Assembly (NCBI GenBank): GCA_029261925.1
Contig: JAJDAJ010000040.1
Coordinates: 1 to 64,000, forward strand
DNA length: 64,000 nucleotides
Source: Deltaproteobacteria bacterium
Lineage (GTDB): Bacteria > Myxococcota_A > UBA9160 > SZUA-336
Direction of reading: 5' to 3'
Positions 707 through 45,806 of the stretch are shown in pieces. How positions within the stretch are numbered: the first letter of the stretch is position 1; each line of letters starts with the position of its first letter. The position numbers were made by a program, and so were the translations under genes. The notes beneath the pieces were generated by a model. The model saw only the letters and a list, made by a program, of their open reading frames with translations, did no database searches and was not told the origin of the DNA.

Positions 707-972
707 TGCGCGTGCGCGTGCGCGTGCGCGGTCGCGTCCAGGGGGTCTGGTTCCGCGAGTCCACCCGGCGCGCCGCCGAGGGCGCGGGCGTTCGTGGCTG
801 GGTGTGCAATCGTCGGGACGGCAGCGTCGAGGCGCTGCTCGACGGCGCGTCCGCCGCCGTGCGCAGCGTCGTGGACTTCATGGGCGTCGGCCCGGAGCAG
901 GCGCGGGTCGCGGAGGTCGCGGTCACGGACGAGCCCCCGGGCGAGACCCCTGCAGGCTTCGAGGTGCACTGA
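706..972 (+). CDS. acyP: acylphosphatase
   Basis: This 88-residue protein has the usual acylphosphatase length and hydrolyses the carboxyl-phosphate bond of acyl phosphates in the cytoplasm. The phosphate-binding loop is GRVQGVWFRES, with the catalytic Arg in WFRES, and the catalytic Asn follows in GWVCNRRDGSVEA. The last Gly of the usual VQGVGFR loop is Trp here, a common variant. The N-terminus alternates Arg and Val because it is encoded by a (CGTGCG)-type tandem repeat just after the ATG. It overlaps its upstream neighbour by one base and the next gene by three (TGATG), so it sits in a translationally coupled trio. Confidence 0.93.
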   Translation: MRVRVRVRGRVQGVWFRESTRRAAEGAGVRGWVCNRRDGSVEALLDGASAAVRSVVDFMGVGPEQARVAEVAVTDEPPGETPAGFEVH

Positions 973-1880
973 TGCGCGTGGGAATCACCGGCTCGAGCGG
1001 ACTCATCGGGAGCGCACTGGCGCGCGCGCTGGCAGCGCGCGGCGACGCGGTGGTGCGCTTCGTTCGCGGGCGCGAGCCGGCCGGGCCGGGCGAGCGGCGC
1101 TGGGACCCCGACCGCGGCGAGGTCTCGCCCGGCGCGCTGGATGGCCTCGACGCGCTGGTGAACCTGGCCGGCGAGAACCTCGGCCGCGGGCGCTGGACCG
1201 ACGCGTACAGGCGCCGCATCCGCGACAGCCGCGTGCGCGGCACGCGCGCGCTCTGCGACGCCCTGCTGCGCTCCTCTGCGCCGCCGGGCGTGCTGGTCTC
1301 GGCCTCGGCCCTGGGGTACTACGGCGACCGCGGCGGGGCCTGGCTCGACGAGGACAGCCCGCCGGGCGAGGGCTTCCTGCCGGAGCTCTGTCGCGACTGG
1401 GAGGCCGCAGCGGGCCGCGCGTGCGAGGCGGGCACGCGCGTGGTCTGCCTGCGTATCGGCGTGGTGCTGCATCCCGACGGAGGCGCGCTCGCGAGGATGC
1501 TCCGGGTCTTCCGGATCGGCCTGGGCGGGCCAGTGGGCGGGGGCGAGCAGTTCGTGAGCTGGGTCTCGCGTCCCGACGTCGTGGGCGCCGCCCTGCGCGC
1601 CCTCGACGACGCGCGCCTGGCGGGCCCCGTCAACGCGGTCTCGCCCGACCCGGTGCCGCAGGCGCGGCTCGCGCAGGTGCTCGGCGCGGCCCTGGGCCGG
1701 CCCGCTTTCTTGCCGCTGCCCGGCGTGGCCGTGCGGCTTGCCTGGGGCGAGATGGGTGAGGCCCTGCTGCTCCACAGCGCGCGCATCCGCCCCGCGCGCC
1801 TGCTCGGCATCGATCATCCCTTCGCGCACCCCGAGCTCGGGCGTGCACTGCCGGAGATCCTCGAGTCCGGTGAGGGCTAG
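972..1880 (+). CDS. TIGR01777 family SDR/epimerase-like protein
   Basis: A 302-residue protein of the TIGR01777 family (YfcH/SDR39U1-like), atypical short-chain dehydrogenases of unknown substrate. The NAD(P)-binding glycine motif is at the extreme N-terminus (GITGSSGLIGSALA), followed by NLAGENLGRGRW and SASALGYYGD, which are hallmarks of the family. The C-terminal part (LPGVAVRLAWGEMGEALL) matches the DUF1731 tail. The start is the ATG overlapping the acyP stop (TGATG); longer upstream extensions of this frame are only the shadow of acyP. It converges with the yqgE gene on the other strand, and the two stop codons share bases. Confidence 0.9.
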   Translation: MRVGITGSSGLIGSALARALAARGDAVVRFVRGREPAGPGERRWDPDRGEVSPGALDGLDALVNLAGENLGRGRWTDAYRRRIRDSRVRGTRALCDALLRSSAPPGVLVSASALGYYGDRGGAWLDEDSPPGEGFLPELCRDWEAAAGRACEAGTRVVCLRIGVVLHPDGGALARMLRVFRIGLGGPVGGGEQFVSWVSRPDVVGAALRALDDARLAGPVNAVSPDPVPQARLAQVLGAALGRPAFLPLPGVAVRLAWGEMGEALLLHSARIRPARLLGIDHPFAHPELGRALPEILESGEG

Positions 1881-2428
1881 TGCACGCCCGGGGCGCTGAC
1901 GAGCGTGGAGGGCTCCACGCCGATCGAGCGCAGCGCCTCGTTCCACATCTGCTCGCCCGGGACCTCGAAGACGAGCCGGGCGATGGCCTCCGCGGTCAGC
2001 CAGGCGCCCATGGCCATCTCGCCGCCGAGCTGTCCGGCGCCCCAGCCCGCATAGCCCAGCAGGAAGCGCGCGTGGCGCGGCGGCTCGCCGGCGAGCGCGC
2101 GCAGCTCGTCCGGCGAGCTGGACAGGTAGAGGTCCGCGGCGAGCTGCACGGCGTCGGGCGCCGCCGCGCTGCCGGAGTGCACCACCCAGCCGCTGCGGGG
2201 CATCACGGGACCGCCGTACCCGGCGACGTCGTCGGCGTCCCCGGCCCAGCTGAAGCCCGTGGTCTCGAGCACGTCGACCACGCGCAGGTCGGTCGGGCGG
2301 TTGACGACCAGTCCGAACGACTGCTCGGGCGTGTGCTCGACCATGAGGACCACCGAGCGCTCGAAGTTCGGGTCCGCGAGCTGGGGCATCGCCAGCAGCA
2401 GTCCAGGTGCGATCGAGCGCTGGTCCAT
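1877..2428 (-). CDS. YqgE/AlgH family protein (UPF0301)
   Basis: A 183-residue protein starting MDQRSIAPGLLLAMPQL. It has the diagnostic YqgE/AlgH features: an N-terminal PGLLLAMP and FERSVVLMVEH, then FGLVVNRPTD, GGPVMPRSGWVVH and FLLGYAGWGAGQLGGE. The family is common in proteobacteria and its biochemical role is not settled; in pseudomonads AlgH has been linked to alginate and other gene expression. The ATG at 2428 gives the usual family length. The frame stays open further upstream, but that sequence is antisense to the DsbA-like gene. It ends tail-to-tail with the SDR gene. Confidence 0.92.
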   Translation of the reverse strand: MDQRSIAPGLLLAMPQLADPNFERSVVLMVEHTPEQSFGLVVNRPTDLRVVDVLETTGFSWAGDADDVAGYGGPVMPRSGWVVHSGSAAAPDAVQLAADLYLSSSPDELRALAGEPPRHARFLLGYAGWGAGQLGGEMAMGAWLTAEAIARLVFEVPGEQMWNEALRSIGVEPSTLVSAPGVH

Positions 2429-2494
2429 CGACGTGGAATCTAGCAAGCCGCGAGGGCTAAGCTGGGTGCGGCCCGCGGGGGCCGGAGGACGACG

Positions 2495-3085
2495 ATGCAG
2501 ATCCCCTTTTTCTTCGACTACGCCTGCCCCTGGGCCTTCCTGGGCAGCTCGCGCGTCGAGGCCTACCTGAAGGACCTCGACGTGGAGGTCGATTTCCGGC
2601 CCGTGCACCTGTCGAGCCTCAAGGAGCCGTCGGCGGGCAAGGCCCCCGAGCTCGGGCCGCGCAAGAAGCAGAACCTGGCGAACGACCTGCGCCACTGGTG
2701 CGAGCTGGTCGGCGTGGAGCTCAACCCCGACGCGCGCGGGCTCGTGGGCAAGAGCACACGGCTGGCGCTGAAGGCGGCCCTGGTCGCGAAGGACGCCGGC
2801 AGGCTCGGCGCCTTCCATCACCCCGCCTACCGCGCGCGCTGGTGCGAGGCGCGCGACCTCTCCGAGCGCGAGGTCGTCGGCGAGCTGCTCGAGGGCGCGG
2901 GTCTCGACGCCGCGGCGGCGCTGGAGCGGGCCGAGAGCGACGAGCTCGAGCGCCGTCTCGACGCCGACACCCAGGCCACCATCGAGCGCGGCGTCTTCGG
3001 CGTTCCGACGCTGCTGGTGGGCGACGAGCTGATCTGGGGCAACGACCGCCTGGAGCTGGTGCGCTTCTACGCGCAGCGCCGGTGA
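2495..3085 (+). CDS. DsbA-fold oxidoreductase (HCCA isomerase / GST-kappa-like)
   Basis: A 196-residue DsbA-superfamily protein without signal peptide, so probably cytoplasmic. The active site at residues 8-14 is DYACPWAFLG. It has a single Cys-Pro-Trp-Ala rather than a CxxC pair, as in 2-hydroxychromene-2-carboxylate isomerases and kappa-class glutathione transferases. The cis-proline loop is GVFGVPTLLV, and the C-terminus has WGNDRLELV, both typical of that group. A GGAGG ribosome site lies a few bases before the ATG. With a single Cys it is more likely a glutathione-dependent isomerase or transferase than a disulfide oxidase. The substrate cannot be told from context. Confidence 0.85.
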   Translation: MQIPFFFDYACPWAFLGSSRVEAYLKDLDVEVDFRPVHLSSLKEPSAGKAPELGPRKKQNLANDLRHWCELVGVELNPDARGLVGKSTRLALKAALVAKDAGRLGAFHHPAYRARWCEARDLSEREVVGELLEGAGLDAAAALERAESDELERRLDADTQATIERGVFGVPTLLVGDELIWGNDRLELVRFYAQRR

Positions 3086-3170
3086 GCGGAACCCGGGGGC
3101 GGCCGGGCGGTTGCTCCCTGAGTGCCCCGGCAGCGGGCCGCGGGCGCCCGGCCGGCGCGAGGGAGTGCAG

Positions 3171-28471: not shown

Positions 28472-28750
28472 TCAGTGGAGCGTCACGCCCCGGCGCATGC
28501 CCGGCAGGAACTGCCGCCCCGGCAGGAAACGACCCGCCACGGTGACGTCGATGCGATGCTCGTCGTCGTCGCCCACGCGCGTGCGGGTCGACGGGGTCTC
28601 GGGCTCGTCGCTCGCGTCCGTCTCCGGGTCGGCGGCGTCCTCGTCGTCGTCCACGGGAATCGCGGGGAAGGGCCGCTCCTCGCGGCGCCGCCGCTGTCGC
28701 TCCGGAACACGCGGCGAGATCCGCTCGACGCTGTCGATCAGCTCGATCAT
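28472..28750 (-). CDS. hypothetical flagellar-operon protein, 92 aa
   Basis: A small charged protein beginning MIELIDSVERISPRVPERQ. It has a basic stretch (RRRREERP), an acidic middle (VDDDEDAADPETDASDEPE) and a conserved-looking C-terminus (DVTVAGRFLPGRQFLPGMRR). There is no signal peptide or membrane helix. The start is the ATG overlapping the HDOD gene stop (ATGA), which supports real translation. It is the last gene of the flgB unit. I do not recognise a family; position suggests a role with the HDOD protein or in flagellar control, but that is only inference. Confidence 0.6.
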   Translation of the reverse strand: MIELIDSVERISPRVPERQRRRREERPFPAIPVDDDEDAADPETDASDEPETPSTRTRVGDDDEHRIDVTVAGRFLPGRQFLPGMRRGVTLH

Positions 28751-29586
28751 GACAGGACTCCCTTCTCCTCCTCGTACGCCTCTCCGAAGCGTTCGACGAG
28801 CGTGGCGGGATCCGATTCGATGCCCAGGATCCGGGCGCCGTCGCAGTCCAGGATCTCCAGGTCCTCCTGCGGGCTCCTGCGCCCCAGGCCCCGGAGCAGG
28901 CACATCCGGTCGGCGACCTGCAGCAGGGCGGCAAGTGGCTGCTCGCCCTGCTCGCCGGCCGCGGAGGCCGGGTCGTGATGCGCCCCGATCGCGAGCGCCA
29001 GCCGCGCCGGGATCTTCCAGCGGGTGAGCACGAGCGAGCCGAGCTCCGCGTGATCGAAGCCGAAGACGTCGCGCTCGGCCTCGACCGGGTTCGCGCCGTC
29101 GCTGTAGACGCGCTTGAGCACGCCCTGGAACTGCTTCTCCGCCTGCGAGTGCATCACGAGCTTGCCCACGTCGTGCAGCAGGCCGGCCAGGAAGATCTCC
29201 TCGCGGTTCATGCCGCCCACCTCCTCGGCCAGCGTGCTGGCTGCGGCGGCGGCCGCCACCGCGTGCTCCCAGAGCAGGCGCTCGGCGAGCCCGAAGCGGG
29301 CGAAGACCTCCTTCATGGAGGCGGCCACGACCATGGAGCGCAGCGTGGAGTAGCCGAGCAGCACGATGGCCTGCTGGAGCGTCTCGACCTCCCGGGGCGT
29401 GGCATAGAAGGAGGAGTTGGCGATCTTGAGCACGCGAACCGCGAGTGAGGCATCGCGGGCGATCAGCTCGGCGATGCTCGACAGGTCGGTGTCCGGGTCC
29501 TCGGCCATCCGCATCACCTCGGTGGCCACGGGCGGCATGATCGGGAGCTCCTTGGCGTCCTCGATGAACGCAGCGGGATCGGACAT
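28747..29586 (-). CDS. HDOD domain signalling protein
   Basis: A 279-residue HDOD protein: KELPIMPPVATEVMRMAED at the N-terminus, SLAVRVLKIANSSFYATPRE, LQQAIVLLGYSTLRSMVVAA and FLAGLLHDVGKLVMH, the full HDOD signature over residues 10-210. HDOD domains are related to HD phosphohydrolases but usually lack activity and act as signalling or scaffolding modules, some in flagellar or chemotaxis control. It lies 12 bases after flhF, the place often taken by flhG (fleN). It has no attached output domain. Confidence 0.92.
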   Translation of the reverse strand: MSDPAAFIEDAKELPIMPPVATEVMRMAEDPDTDLSSIAELIARDASLAVRVLKIANSSFYATPREVETLQQAIVLLGYSTLRSMVVAASMKEVFARFGLAERLLWEHAVAAAAAASTLAEEVGGMNREEIFLAGLLHDVGKLVMHSQAEKQFQGVLKRVYSDGANPVEAERDVFGFDHAELGSLVLTRWKIPARLALAIGAHHDPASAAGEQGEQPLAALLQVADRMCLLRGLGRRSPQEDLEILDCDGARILGIESDPATLVERFGEAYEEEKGVLS

Positions 29587-35805: not shown

Positions 35806-36274
35806 CGAGGCCCTCGAAGGTGCCGATGACCTCGACCAGCGAGCCCTCCGCCGGACGCTCCGACGGCAGGGCGTTCGCGAGCTCCGCGGCGAACGGCGGG
35901 AGCTCGCTGAGGTCCGCCAGCGGGGCCACCGTCTCGGGTCCCGTGCCCAGCAGCAGCCGGCGCTCGCCGACCTCGACCAGGACCAGGTTGTGGCGCGGTC
36001 CGATGCCGCGGCTCGCGATGATCTGGATGCGGTTCTCGTTGCCCGTCCCGATGCCGCGGCGCCTCCGGCTCCACCAGGCGAGGGCGCCGGCGCCCGCGCA
36101 GAGCACGAAGAGCACCCCGAACATCCGCGCCATCGGGGCCGCCATCGGCGACGGGAAGCCGTCCACGTCGGGCAGTGCCTGCGCAGGGGCCGCGACGGCG
36201 CTCTCCGGACTGGCGAGGGTGGCCCCTGCCGGAACGGTGAGCGCGATCAGCAGCGAGAGCGCCGCGAGCCTCAC
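35798..36274 (-). CDS. fliO: flagellar biosynthesis protein FliO
   Basis: A 158-residue protein with an N-terminal signal-like segment (AALSLLIALTVPAGATLA), one membrane helix (MFGVLFVLCAGAGALAWW) followed by Arg residues, and a small cytoplasmic domain with the FliO motif IIASRGIGPRHNLVLVEVGE and RRLLLGTGPE. It helps FliP assemble. Position between fliN and fliP is the usual one. Confidence 0.93.
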   Translation of the reverse strand: MRLAALSLLIALTVPAGATLASPESAVAAPAQALPDVDGFPSPMAAPMARMFGVLFVLCAGAGALAWWSRRRRGIGTGNENRIQIIASRGIGPRHNLVLVEVGERRLLLGTGPETVAPLADLSELPPFAAELANALPSERPAEGSLVEVIGTFEGLDA

Positions 36275-36564
36275 GCCAGGTTCTCCAGTCGCTCGGCCGG
36301 GCTGTTGATGGACACCACGCGCACGGCGTAGCGGTCGTTGAAGACCACGATCTCGCCCATGGCGATCGGCCGCCCGTTGACCAGGACGTCCACCGGCTCG
36401 CCGGCCAGGCGCTCCAGGTCCACGATCGAGCCCTGACCGAGCTCGAGCAGCTCCTGGATCAGCATTCGCGTCCGGCCCAGCTCCACGGTCACGCGGAGCG
36501 GGATGTCGAGCAGGAGCTCGAAACCCTCCTCGGCCTCCTGCTGCTCTGGCGTCTCTTCGGGCAT
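36271..36564 (-). CDS. fliN: flagellar motor switch protein FliN
   Basis: A 97-residue SpoA-domain protein of the C-ring: LLLDIPLRVTVELGRTRM, LLELGQGSIVDLERLAGEPV, DVLVNGRPIAMGEIVVFNDR and YAVRVVSI are all canonical. The acidic N-terminus is short. It lies 13 bases after fliM and overlaps fliO by four bases. Confidence 0.97.
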   Translation of the reverse strand: MPEETPEQQEAEEGFELLLDIPLRVTVELGRTRMLIQELLELGQGSIVDLERLAGEPVDVLVNGRPIAMGEIVVFNDRYAVRVVSINSPAERLENLA

Positions 36565-36577
36565 CGGATCCTCCGGA

Positions 36578-37738
36578 TCAGCTGTGCAGCGCGGCCTCGA
36601 GGACGCGCCGCTCCACCCAGCCGCGATCGACGATCGAGTCGAGCAGCTGGCGTCGGTTGATGTGCTCGTCGACCAGCGCCACCGCGAGCTGCTCGCGCGT
36701 GATCAGGCCCTTGCGCACCAGGACCTGGCCGGCCGTACGGTCCTGGAGTGCGGTGCCGTACTTGCGCCGGCTCGTCACCTTGACCGCGTAGTTGTGGTTG
36801 ATCTGGCCCAGGCGACCCTTGAGCGTCGGGCGTCCCTCGACCAGCACGTCGATCTCGTCCTCGACCAGCCTCTCGAGCTGGAGCATGTCGCCGACGGCCA
36901 GCTCGCGCAGGCGGCGCGTCGTGATGTCGGTGCCGCCCAGGACCGCGCGCAGCTCGGCATCGGCCGAGCGCAGGTTCTGCACCAGGTTCACGCGCCAGTT
37001 CAGGTCGATCTCCTCGCCGCTTCGCAGCGAGGTCGCCTCGAAGAGCGGCTCGAGGCTGGAGTAGGGCATGACGAAGAAGATCGGCGAGGCGGGAAGCGCG
37101 TCGCCCGCCACCATGATCTTGCCGATGTGGCAGACCTCCTCGTCGGAGATGGTGCTCGCGACCTGGGTGGCCCGATCGCAGCGGACCTGCTCGACCTTGA
37201 GCGGGAACCAGGGCTTCCAGGCGCTCTCGAAGTCGCGCAGCACATCGAGGTGAGCGCGCCGCAGCAGGTTCTCCTCGATCTCGGAGACCTCGCGATCCTC
37301 CGGGTACTCGCCCACGCCCAGTCCGCCCATCAGGGCGTCGACGAGCGCGTAGAGGATCGCCGGATCGAAGAGCATCACGCCCAGTCCGCGCAGTGGATCG
37401 AGCCGAACCACGTGGTAGAGGCACGGGCGCTTGTCGAAGCGGCGGCGCAGCTCCCCGAACTTGGCCAGCTCGATGCTGGCGCCCTCGCTGCGGATCGGGA
37501 ATCGCAGGCTCTTGGTCAGGGTGACCTGCGCCGCCGGGCCGAGCCGGTCGAAGACCAGGTCCAGCACAGGCAGCCGGCGGCGGATGACCCGCTCCTGCGT
37601 CCAGGCGGGGTCGCGCACGTCGAGGCGACTCGCCGACTGCAGCGGGACGAGCGAGTCCTTCGAGGTGGGGATCTTCCCCTCCTTGATGGCCCGGACGAGC
37701 TGGTCGACGTCGGCCTGGCGCAGCACCGAATCGCTCAC
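36578..37738 (-). CDS. fliM: flagellar motor switch protein FliM with C-terminal extension
   Basis: A 386-residue C-ring protein, roughly 50 residues longer than usual. The N-terminus has a short LRQADVDQLVRAIKEG helix in place of the standard LSQDEIDALL CheY-binding peptide. The middle domain includes HVVRLDPLRGLGVMLFDPAI. The SpoA domain runs to GRLGQINHNYAVKVTS (about residue 322). An unusual tail (324-386) follows that reads like MshEN repeats: AGQVLVRKGLITREQLAVAL, then LLDSIVDRGWVERRVLEAAL. The ATG overlaps the fliL stop (four bases). Confidence 0.95.
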   Translation of the reverse strand: MSDSVLRQADVDQLVRAIKEGKIPTSKDSLVPLQSASRLDVRDPAWTQERVIRRRLPVLDLVFDRLGPAAQVTLTKSLRFPIRSEGASIELAKFGELRRRFDKRPCLYHVVRLDPLRGLGVMLFDPAILYALVDALMGGLGVGEYPEDREVSEIEENLLRRAHLDVLRDFESAWKPWFPLKVEQVRCDRATQVASTISDEEVCHIGKIMVAGDALPASPIFFVMPYSSLEPLFEATSLRSGEEIDLNWRVNLVQNLRSADAELRAVLGGTDITTRRLRELAVGDMLQLERLVEDEIDVLVEGRPTLKGRLGQINHNYAVKVTSRRKYGTALQDRTAGQVLVRKGLITREQLAVALVDEHINRRQLLDSIVDRGWVERRVLEAALHS

Positions 37739-38472
37739 TGTACGACGAACTCCGTGAAGTAGATCGCCTCGGCCTTGCCCGAGACCAGGAGGCTGTTGAT
37801 GCGCAGCAGAAGCTCCTCGCGCAGGAAGTTCTTGCCCTCGATGCTGCGCACGTCGTCGAACGACTTGCTGCCGAGCAGGCTGATGATCAGGTCCCGGATC
37901 TGGGGCAGCCGCTGCTCCATCTCGGGGGCGACGGCGTCATCCGAGAGCTCGATCTCGGTCTTGAGCTTCAGGAAGCGATCGCGGTCCCGGTCGGTGATGT
38001 TCACCACGAAGGGCTCGAGCGGGAAGATCCGCCCGATGTGCGCGGGCGCCGCCGCACCCTCGCCCTCGGCCTCCTCCTCCGCCTCGGCGGCCACGTCGGG
38101 CAGCTCCACGTCGAGCTCGGCGGCGAAGTCGATGCCGTCGCGGAGCCCCGCCAGCGAGGCCTCGAGGACCGGCCGCGGCCCGACCGGCTGCGCGGACTCG
38201 GAGAGCTCGGGCGCGGCCTCCCCGGCGGGCTCGTCGCCGAGCATCCAGAAGGCGACGCCGCCGGCGACCGCTGCCACGCCGAGCGCGGCCGAGCCGCCGA
38301 TCAGCGCCGTGCGCAGGCTGCGCGGGCGCGGCGTGGCCGCATCTGCGTCCGCGTCGCCCGTCGTCGCCTCGACCGCGTCGGATCCGTCGGGCCCGGGGTC
38401 GACCGCCTCCATCTCGAGGGTCTGGTCCTCGGCACCGGACTCGACGTCTCCGGGTCGCTCATCCGCCATCAC
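37735..38472 (-). CDS. fliL: flagellar basal-body protein FliL
   Basis: A 245-residue protein. A long acidic cytoplasmic N-terminus (about 75 residues) precedes one membrane helix (GSAALGVAAVAGGVAFWML) and a periplasmic FliL domain with FPLEPFVVNITDRDRDRFLK, ELSDDAVAPEMEQRLPQIRD and IISLLGSKSFDDVRSIEG. It is longer than typical FliL (about 160) owing to the N-terminal region. FliL supports stator function. No motAB genes are in the window. Confidence 0.95.
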   Translation of the reverse strand: MMADERPGDVESGAEDQTLEMEAVDPGPDGSDAVEATTGDADADAATPRPRSLRTALIGGSAALGVAAVAGGVAFWMLGDEPAGEAAPELSESAQPVGPRPVLEASLAGLRDGIDFAAELDVELPDVAAEAEEEAEGEGAAAPAHIGRIFPLEPFVVNITDRDRDRFLKLKTEIELSDDAVAPEMEQRLPQIRDLIISLLGSKSFDDVRSIEGKNFLREELLLRINSLLVSGKAEAIYFTEFVVQ

Positions 38473-44177: not shown

Positions 44178-44806
44178 CCTGCGTCTCCCGCCGCGTCGAC
44201 GCGGCGGCGCGCGGCGCCGAGCAGGCGCTCCGGCCGACCGTCGTAGACGCGCGCCGGGGTGTGCAGCACCACGTCCCCCGGTGAGAGCGCGGGGTCGGCC
44301 TGCACCTGGATCCGGCCGTCGGTCAGGTCGAGCTCGAGCTCGGGCAGGTACGCCCGGACTCGCTCCAGATCGCCGGGCGCGACGTGCAGCACCCCGACGC
44401 CGTCGTCGCCGAGCTCCGCGATGCACTCGCGGGCGATGCGGGTGACGGCCTCCGGATCGCTCTGCAGCTCGGCGCGGAGGATGCGGCGCGCGATCTCGGT
44501 CGCGGCCTCGACCAGCACGGCCTCGGCGTCCATCAGGCGCTGCTCGCGCACGATGGCCATCGACTTGGCGACCGCCCGGAACTCGTCGAGCACGGGCGAC
44601 AGCTCCTTGAGCGTGGCATCGCGACCGATCTGCTCGCCCTCGGCCAGGCCGTTGCGATGGGCCTCGTCGGGAGTCAGCTCGCGCGCGGCGTCGCGGTCGA
44701 TGCGCTCGAAGGCGATCACCTCCTCGAACTGGCCCGGCGCGACCTCGGGGTCCTGCGTGCGCAGGTCCACGAAGCTGGGACGTCGGATGAGATCAGATGA
44801 GCTCAT
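44174..44806 (-). CDS. fliH: flagellar assembly protein FliH
   Basis: A 210-residue regulator of FliI. The N-terminus is acidic and has the GLAEGEQIGRDATLKELSP segment. The C-terminal half has the FliH/HrpE/V-ATPase E pattern (VEAATEIARRILRAELQSDP, RIQVQADPALSPGDVVLHTP). It overlaps fliG by 14 bases. Confidence 0.9.
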   Translation of the reverse strand: MSSSDLIRRPSFVDLRTQDPEVAPGQFEEVIAFERIDRDAARELTPDEAHRNGLAEGEQIGRDATLKELSPVLDEFRAVAKSMAIVREQRLMDAEAVLVEAATEIARRILRAELQSDPEAVTRIARECIAELGDDGVGVLHVAPGDLERVRAYLPELELDLTDGRIQVQADPALSPGDVVLHTPARVYDGRPERLLGAARRRVDAAGDAG

Positions 44807-45806
44807 CGCCGTCTCCCTGGCGGCTCGGGCCGATGATCTCGCCGCGCTCGACCATCTCGCGGGCCGTGTTCGCGATCTTCTGCTGGGCGTCCTCGACCTC
44901 GGACAGGCGCACCGGGCCCATGGTCTCGAGGTCCTCGAGCAGAGACGCCGACACGCGCTGCGACACGTTCGAGAGGAACTTCTCGAGCATGGACGGCTCG
45001 GCGCCCTTCAGGGCGAGGACCAGGGTCCCGTTGTCGATCTTGCGCAGCAGCTGCTGGATCCCTCGATCGTCGATGTCGAGCAGGTCGTCGAAGGTGAACA
45101 TGCGCTCGCGGATGATCCCGGCGACCTCCTCGTCCTGCTCTCCGATCGCCTCGAGCAGCGAGCCCTCGCTGGCCCGGTCCATGTTCATGAACATCGAGAC
45201 GGCGACGTCGACGCCCTCCATCTCCTGCGCCTGCGCGGCGCCCTCGAAGCCGGCGATCTCGCGCTCGAGCGCGCGGTTGAGCTCCGCGAGCATGTCCTCG
45301 CTGATCTTCTCCATGCGCGCGATGCGCATGACCACGTCGACCCGCAGGTCCTCGGGCAGCGCCAGCAGGATCTCGGCCGCCTGCAGCGGCGGCAGCTGCG
45401 AGAGGATGAGGGCGCAGGTCTGCGGGTACTCGCGGCTCAGGATGCGGCCGATGACGCGCGCGTCGATCTCGGCGAGCGTATCCTGGATCTTGCCGATCTC
45501 GACGTCGGTGCGGCCGAAGATGTTGCCGAGGCGCTCCTCGTCGAACGAGCTGCGGATCAGCGCGTCGACCGACTTGCCCGCGAAGCCACGGGCGCCGTAC
45601 AGGCGAGTGGCGAAGTCGGTCGCGACATCGTCGACCACGTCGTCCGTGGGCTCGCCCAGGTCCTGATCGGCGCGATTGATGCGTGCGATGTCGCGATCGC
45701 CCATGTCCTTGAGGATCTGAACCGCGACCTCCTCGTTGAGCAGGCGCAGGATCAGCGCGACTTTGTGCGGGCCCGTGAGGCGTTTCTTGGCGGTCTTGCG
45801 GGCCAA
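44793..45806 (-). CDS. fliG: flagellar motor switch protein FliG
   Basis: A 337-residue rotor protein: HKVALILRLLNEEVAVQILK and FADRLYGARGFAG-like N-terminal region binding FliF, the armadillo middle part (ALILSQLPPLQAAEILLALP), and the C-terminal torque domain with MFTFDDLLDIDDRGIQQLLR, VLALKGAEPSMLEKFLSNVS and QRVSASLLEDLETMGPVRLS. The charged torque-helix residues are present. It lies four bases after fliF. Confidence 0.97.
   Translation of the reverse strand: MARKTAKKRLTGPHKVALILRLLNEEVAVQILKDMGDRDIARINRADQDLGEPTDDVVDDVATDFATRLYGARGFAGKSVDALIRSSFDEERLGNIFGRTDVEIGKIQDTLAEIDARVIGRILSREYPQTCALILSQLPPLQAAEILLALPEDLRVDVVMRIARMEKISEDMLAELNRALEREIAGFEGAAQAQEMEGVDVAVSMFMNMDRASEGSLLEAIGEQDEEVAGIIRERMFTFDDLLDIDDRGIQQLLRKIDNGTLVLALKGAEPSMLEKFLSNVSQRVSASLLEDLETMGPVRLSEVEDAQQKIANTAREMVERGEIIGPSRQGDGDELI

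Follow-up and report, generated by a model that had tools for sequence, protein, structure and literature searches.

Can the flagellar switch protein FliM of a Deltaproteobacteria bacterium itself sense c-di-GMP? The question is raised by a C-terminal extension of FliM encoded in the window, the whole 64,000-nucleotide stretch analysed here (contig JAJDAJ010000040.1). The initial annotation ended the SpoA domain at about residue 322 and regarded the 63 residues that follow as an MshEN-type domain of two repeats; if real, this would equip the switch ring directly with a sensor of the c-di-GMP type, as an alternative to YcgR-type braking.

The fliM gene and its neighborhood

Our analysis reproduced the frame, coordinates, and residues described for the extension, with Pfam placing the end of SpoA at residue 323. 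The gene, its domains, and its neighbors are as follows.

36578..37738 (-): fliM, 386 aa, GTG start
Residues 6-15 of FliM: CheY-docking-like motif LRQADVDQLV, identified by eye against LSQxEIDxLL (PMC5677366)
Residues 47-234 of FliM: middle domain, Pfam PF02154, E 5.5e-26
Residues 255-323 of FliM: SpoA domain (FliMN_C), Pfam PF01052, E 1.1e-19
36581..36769 (-): C-terminal extension of FliM, residues 324-386, 63 aa after SpoA
Residues 324-332 of FliM: variable short linker of about nine residues between SpoA and the tail
36581..36742 (-): putative degenerate MshEN_N (ND0) domain of FliM, residues 333-386
Residues 335-358 of FliM: tail repeat I
Residues 364-386 of FliM: tail repeat II
36271..36564 (-): fliN, 97 aa, downstream neighbor of fliM, FliMN_C, E 1.4e-25
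37735..38472 (-): fliL, upstream neighbor overlapping the fliM start, E 1.4e-24
44793..45806 (-): fliG, the other switch-ring gene, without unusual domains

FliN is the partner of FliM in the C-ring. The gene order around fliM (fliL-fliM-fliN-fliO-fliP-fliQ-fliR-flhB-flhA) agrees with the FliM assignment, and the score of 172 bits against TIGR01397, below the cut-off of 219.6, marks the protein as a divergent FliM. The CheY-docking motif is kept at the N-terminus, suggesting that the motor probably receives ordinary CheY input. Immediately downstream of flhF, the flagellar cluster encodes an HDOD-domain protein (28747-29586, (-)); it also follows flhF in two related genomes, while the locus of a third relative ends before that point.

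Identity of the FliM tail

FliM residues 337-385 aligned with positions 3-51 of the 53-position NCBIfam profile NF053729 (c-di-GMP motif, MshE-related). The E-value was 4.6e-8 when all of FliM was searched and 2.7e-9 for the isolated tail, whose score of 36.7 bits falls slightly under the curated cut-off of 38 bits. Three orthologous tails matched the same profile at E 1.1e-6, 2.3e-5, and 2.8e-7 (24-30 bits), and in all four the match covered both repeats and nearly the full model. When the tail sequence by itself was searched against the PDB, the N-terminal domains of PilF, PilB, and MshE came out on top, with a best E-value of 3.2e-4 and otherwise weak matches. With an HMM built from seven MshEN domains of the same genome, the FliM tail scored 34.7 bits against a maximum of 11.1 among its shuffles, and the orthologous tails scored 19.9, 30.6, and 24.9 bits against at most 13.3 (2,000 shuffles per tail). 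The resemblance to MshEN is therefore beyond chance, and the proposal of an MshEN-type domain with two repeats is borne out by the profile, PDB-sequence, and shuffle tests. NusA-repeat and PHROG matches of the tails were set aside as partial or weak.

The Pfam scan of the tail returned no MshEN (PF05157) match because PF05157 models ND1, the second MshEN subdomain, and the tail has no ND1. In a pilus-type ATPase of the same genome, PF05157 begins where the c-di-GMP motif ends; among the four tailed FliM proteins, three end no more than two residues past the last aligned repeat and one extends a few residues more. As judged from these alignments, the FliM tail corresponds to the MshEN_N (ND0) half of MshEN and would adopt the four-helix MshEN_N bundle fold.

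Structure predictions were uninformative on this point. AlphaFold modeling of the tail alone, from a single sequence without an alignment, gave two long helices (pLDDT 83), and a PDB fold search with this model found no match at E < 4. A low-confidence model of full FliM, computed with one distant homolog (pLDDT 41), placed helices at 348-357, 362-371, and 377-385, the places expected for alpha2-alpha4. The known MshEN fold was not reproduced, and these runs neither support nor exclude it.

Loss of the c-di-GMP contact positions

In MshE of Vibrio cholerae (VcMshE), c-di-GMP is contacted by R9, L10, G11, L25, L29, and Q32 in the first repeat and by R38, L39, G40, L54, L58, and Q61 in the second (PMC5013675), and K or L is likewise accepted at the first contact position (PMC11731258). 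In this numbering, where the FliM residue is n+326, the 12 positions read TAGLLEQLLLL-, TSGLQELLLLL-, SIGLTESVIVL-, and TAGLREPLLLLS in the four tails, corresponding to six, six, six, and five contacts kept. The pilus-type ATPase of the same genome reads KIGLLQKLGLIQ and keeps 12/12. The core positions are largely intact in the tails (8-10 of 10), and they retain G11, L25, L58, and L or V at positions 39 and 54, whereas all four tails have lost R9, Q32, G40, and Q61 and most have lost L10, L29, and R38. In repeat I, R9 is replaced by T or S, L10 by A, S, I, and A, and Q32 by E throughout, with L, Q, T, and R at position 29; in repeat II, R38 is replaced by Q, L, S, and P, G40 by L or I in all four, and three of the tails lack Q61, the fourth having S there. 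The binding signature (R/K/L)LG...L...L..Q in both repeats is not found in the FliM tails. The second repeat had been described as degenerate, which is correct, yet the contact losses affect repeat I as well.

Published variants indicate the cost of such changes. In VcMshE, changes at the leucine contacts reduced binding at least 10-fold, G11L and G40I abolished stabilization by c-di-GMP, and XpsE, carrying G40L among other changes, does not bind the ligand (PMC5013675). The Q190E variant of PilF, at the Q32 position, weakened binding from 6 nM to about 500 nM (PMC11731258). These mutants carry single or few changes, whereas the FliM tails combine several, G40 and Q32 among them, and thus canonical c-di-GMP binding is likely lost; the retained G11, L25, L39, L54, and L58 make a weak half-site conceivable. 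The sensor assignment is not supported by these data, given that ligand-contacting positions were lost in the very orthologs that carry the tail, an outcome that the initial annotation itself had named as refuting it.

Distribution and conservation

FliM was found in 4 of the 11 genomes of the source family, representing four genera, and every copy carried the tail. The other seven family genomes, some more than 90% complete, yielded no FliM match; flagella look patchy within this family. Apart from the tailed FliM, the rest of the class gave SpoA-type matches only, and complete FliM proteins of the phylum's other families lacked such a tail, finishing shortly after SpoA or continuing into unrelated stretches, many of them charged. 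A search of 379 genomes of the phylum with a tail profile recovered the four FliM tails, three weak non-FliM matches, one of them an ATPase of the source genome, and no further FliM-like carrier, and a contig scan outside the phylum found one distant FliM (Gastranaerophilales) without the tail. Among the FliM proteins examined in the phylum, the tail is thus restricted to those of the source family. It is not an assembly artifact, because it occurs in genomes of four genera, each time within the same syntenic fli cluster.

Tail residues 333-384 are the most conserved part of FliM, with a mean pairwise identity of 69.9% among the four orthologs, followed by the middle domain (63.0%), SpoA (39.6%), and the linker (35.2%); this indicates strong selection on the tail. 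The invariant tail residues include D333, R334, G337, Q338, L340-G344, E349-L351, D357, E358, N361, R362, and R372-W374, many of which are polar and distinct from the MshE ligand contacts.

The genome itself is rich in c-di-GMP-related domains (13 GGDEF and 18 PilZ matches). Two Pfam models that both detect the E. coli and B. subtilis controls found no YcgR N-terminal domain in it. This context would be compatible with c-di-GMP input. Two further MshEN proteins of the genome were observed. One is a chemotaxis-linked MshEN fusion of 306 aa (contig C27, ORF 844-1761 (-)), in which a tandem pair of MshEN_N motifs precedes a CheX phosphatase domain; the other is an ATPase of the pilus/secretion type (contig C98, ORF 970-3159 (+)), in which a STAS domain precedes MshEN. 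The second repeat of this ATPase, RRLVEIVLEKGW, is similar to the one in the FliM tail and has V in place of G40.

Possible functions of the FliM tail

On balance, we favor the view that the tail is a degenerate MshEN_N domain acting as an adaptor, which would dock a partner protein to the C-ring. This view builds on the homology to MshEN_N, the conservation of the tail, the loss of contact residues, and the restriction to the FliM of one family; from these we infer that c-di-GMP binding has been lost, and a docking role and the kind of partner are proposed. The domain is conserved even though the residues that hold c-di-GMP are gone, which makes docking of another protein more likely than c-di-GMP sensing by the tail itself. 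An MshEN_N (ND0) domain would have been joined to the C-terminus of FliM in an ancestor of the flagellated members of the family and would have kept its bundle-forming core without a working canonical c-di-GMP site, with strong purifying selection holding it for another job. Present once in each FliM subunit, on the cytoplasmic side of the C-ring, it may now provide a surface for docking and so recruit a partner to the motor, e.g., a PilZ-type or other regulator. Related domains are known to dock proteins: the ND0/ND1 region of X. citri PilB, which lacks the c-di-GMP motif, binds PilZ mainly via ND1 (PMC8389850), and N1E of GspE binds GspL (PMC6882859). That these precedents use mainly ND1, which the FliM tail lacks, is a real weakness of the analogy.

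The main rival, which we consider appreciably less probable than docking, is that the tail packs on FliN or a neighboring FliM and stabilizes the C-ring without any regulatory partner. The tail sits only about nine linker residues after SpoA, and the poor conservation of SpoA within the family, set against FliN that is approximately 70% identical between genera and an equally well conserved tail, would be expected if the tail had taken over ring contacts; other FliM proteins, however, build their rings without such a domain. Direct coupling of c-di-GMP to the rotor in place of YcgR, suggested by the homology to c-di-GMP-binding MshEN_N, appears improbable. The kept G11 and leucine contacts, the wealth of GGDEF and PilZ domains without a detected YcgR N-domain, and the ability of isolated MshEN_N to bind c-di-GMP without ND1 (PMC5013675) would fit it, but the losses at R9, Q32, G40, and Q61 in every tail, at further contacts in most, and the G40L change common to the tail and the non-binder XpsE argue against it. 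Very improbable, too, is a nucleotide sensor within the switch ring itself, in which up to one MshEN_N-derived domain per FliM subunit would bind c-di-GMP, or some other nucleotide, by an altered mode and so control motor output directly, with no need of YcgR. Least probable of all is a convergent resemblance, in which a short helical tail of other origin, such as one like the NusA C-terminal repeat, only looks like MshEN. One of the four tails indeed matched TIGR01954 (NusA C-terminal repeat; E 1.2e-5, first 30 residues only) slightly better than NF053729 (2.3e-5), and the single-sequence model of two long helices had no PDB fold match. That NusA match is nevertheless partial and not common to the other tails at such strength, whereas all four tails match NF053729 over both repeats, the PDB sequence matches are MshEN domains, and no shuffle reached the score of a tail.

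Comparison with known systems

Fusions of MshEN in the literature involve REC, HD-GYP, CheA, CheX, cyclase, and kinase domains (MshEN paper). Our literature search found no description joining FliM and MshEN, and the papers checked, a part of those containing both words, treat them separately; FliM-MshEN_N is a new combination of known domains. An MshEN-derived rotor domain suggests that this lineage has an attachment site of its own on the C-ring, and it would show how a second-messenger module is kept for docking once its ligand site is lost; if binding proved true, it would instead provide direct c-di-GMP input to the switch.

Like MshEN_N of MshE, PilB, and PilF, the FliM tail has two tandem LGxxLxxxGxIxxxxLxxAL repeats with the same five-residue spacing and keeps the core hydrophobic and glycine positions; unlike them, it is C-terminal, lacks ND1, and has most polar and glycine ligand contacts replaced. 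The N-terminal domains of XpsE and of Xanthomonas and Pseudomonas PilB belong to the MshEN-type fold family to which the tail is assigned by sequence, have similarly lost the c-di-GMP motif, and serve in their degenerate form as protein docking domains, but they are parts of ATPases and contain ND1, the subdomain responsible for most of the PilZ contacts in PilB. The YcgR, FlgZ, and MotI brakes act at the motor, as the tail would, and share the c-di-GMP input suggested by the initial annotation, yet they are separate PilZ proteins. The Cle proteins of Caulobacter have FliM in common with the tail as the point of c-di-GMP-related regulation, but they are CheY-like, use the N-terminus of FliM as their docking site, and bind c-di-GMP through their own arginine-rich extension (PMC5677366).
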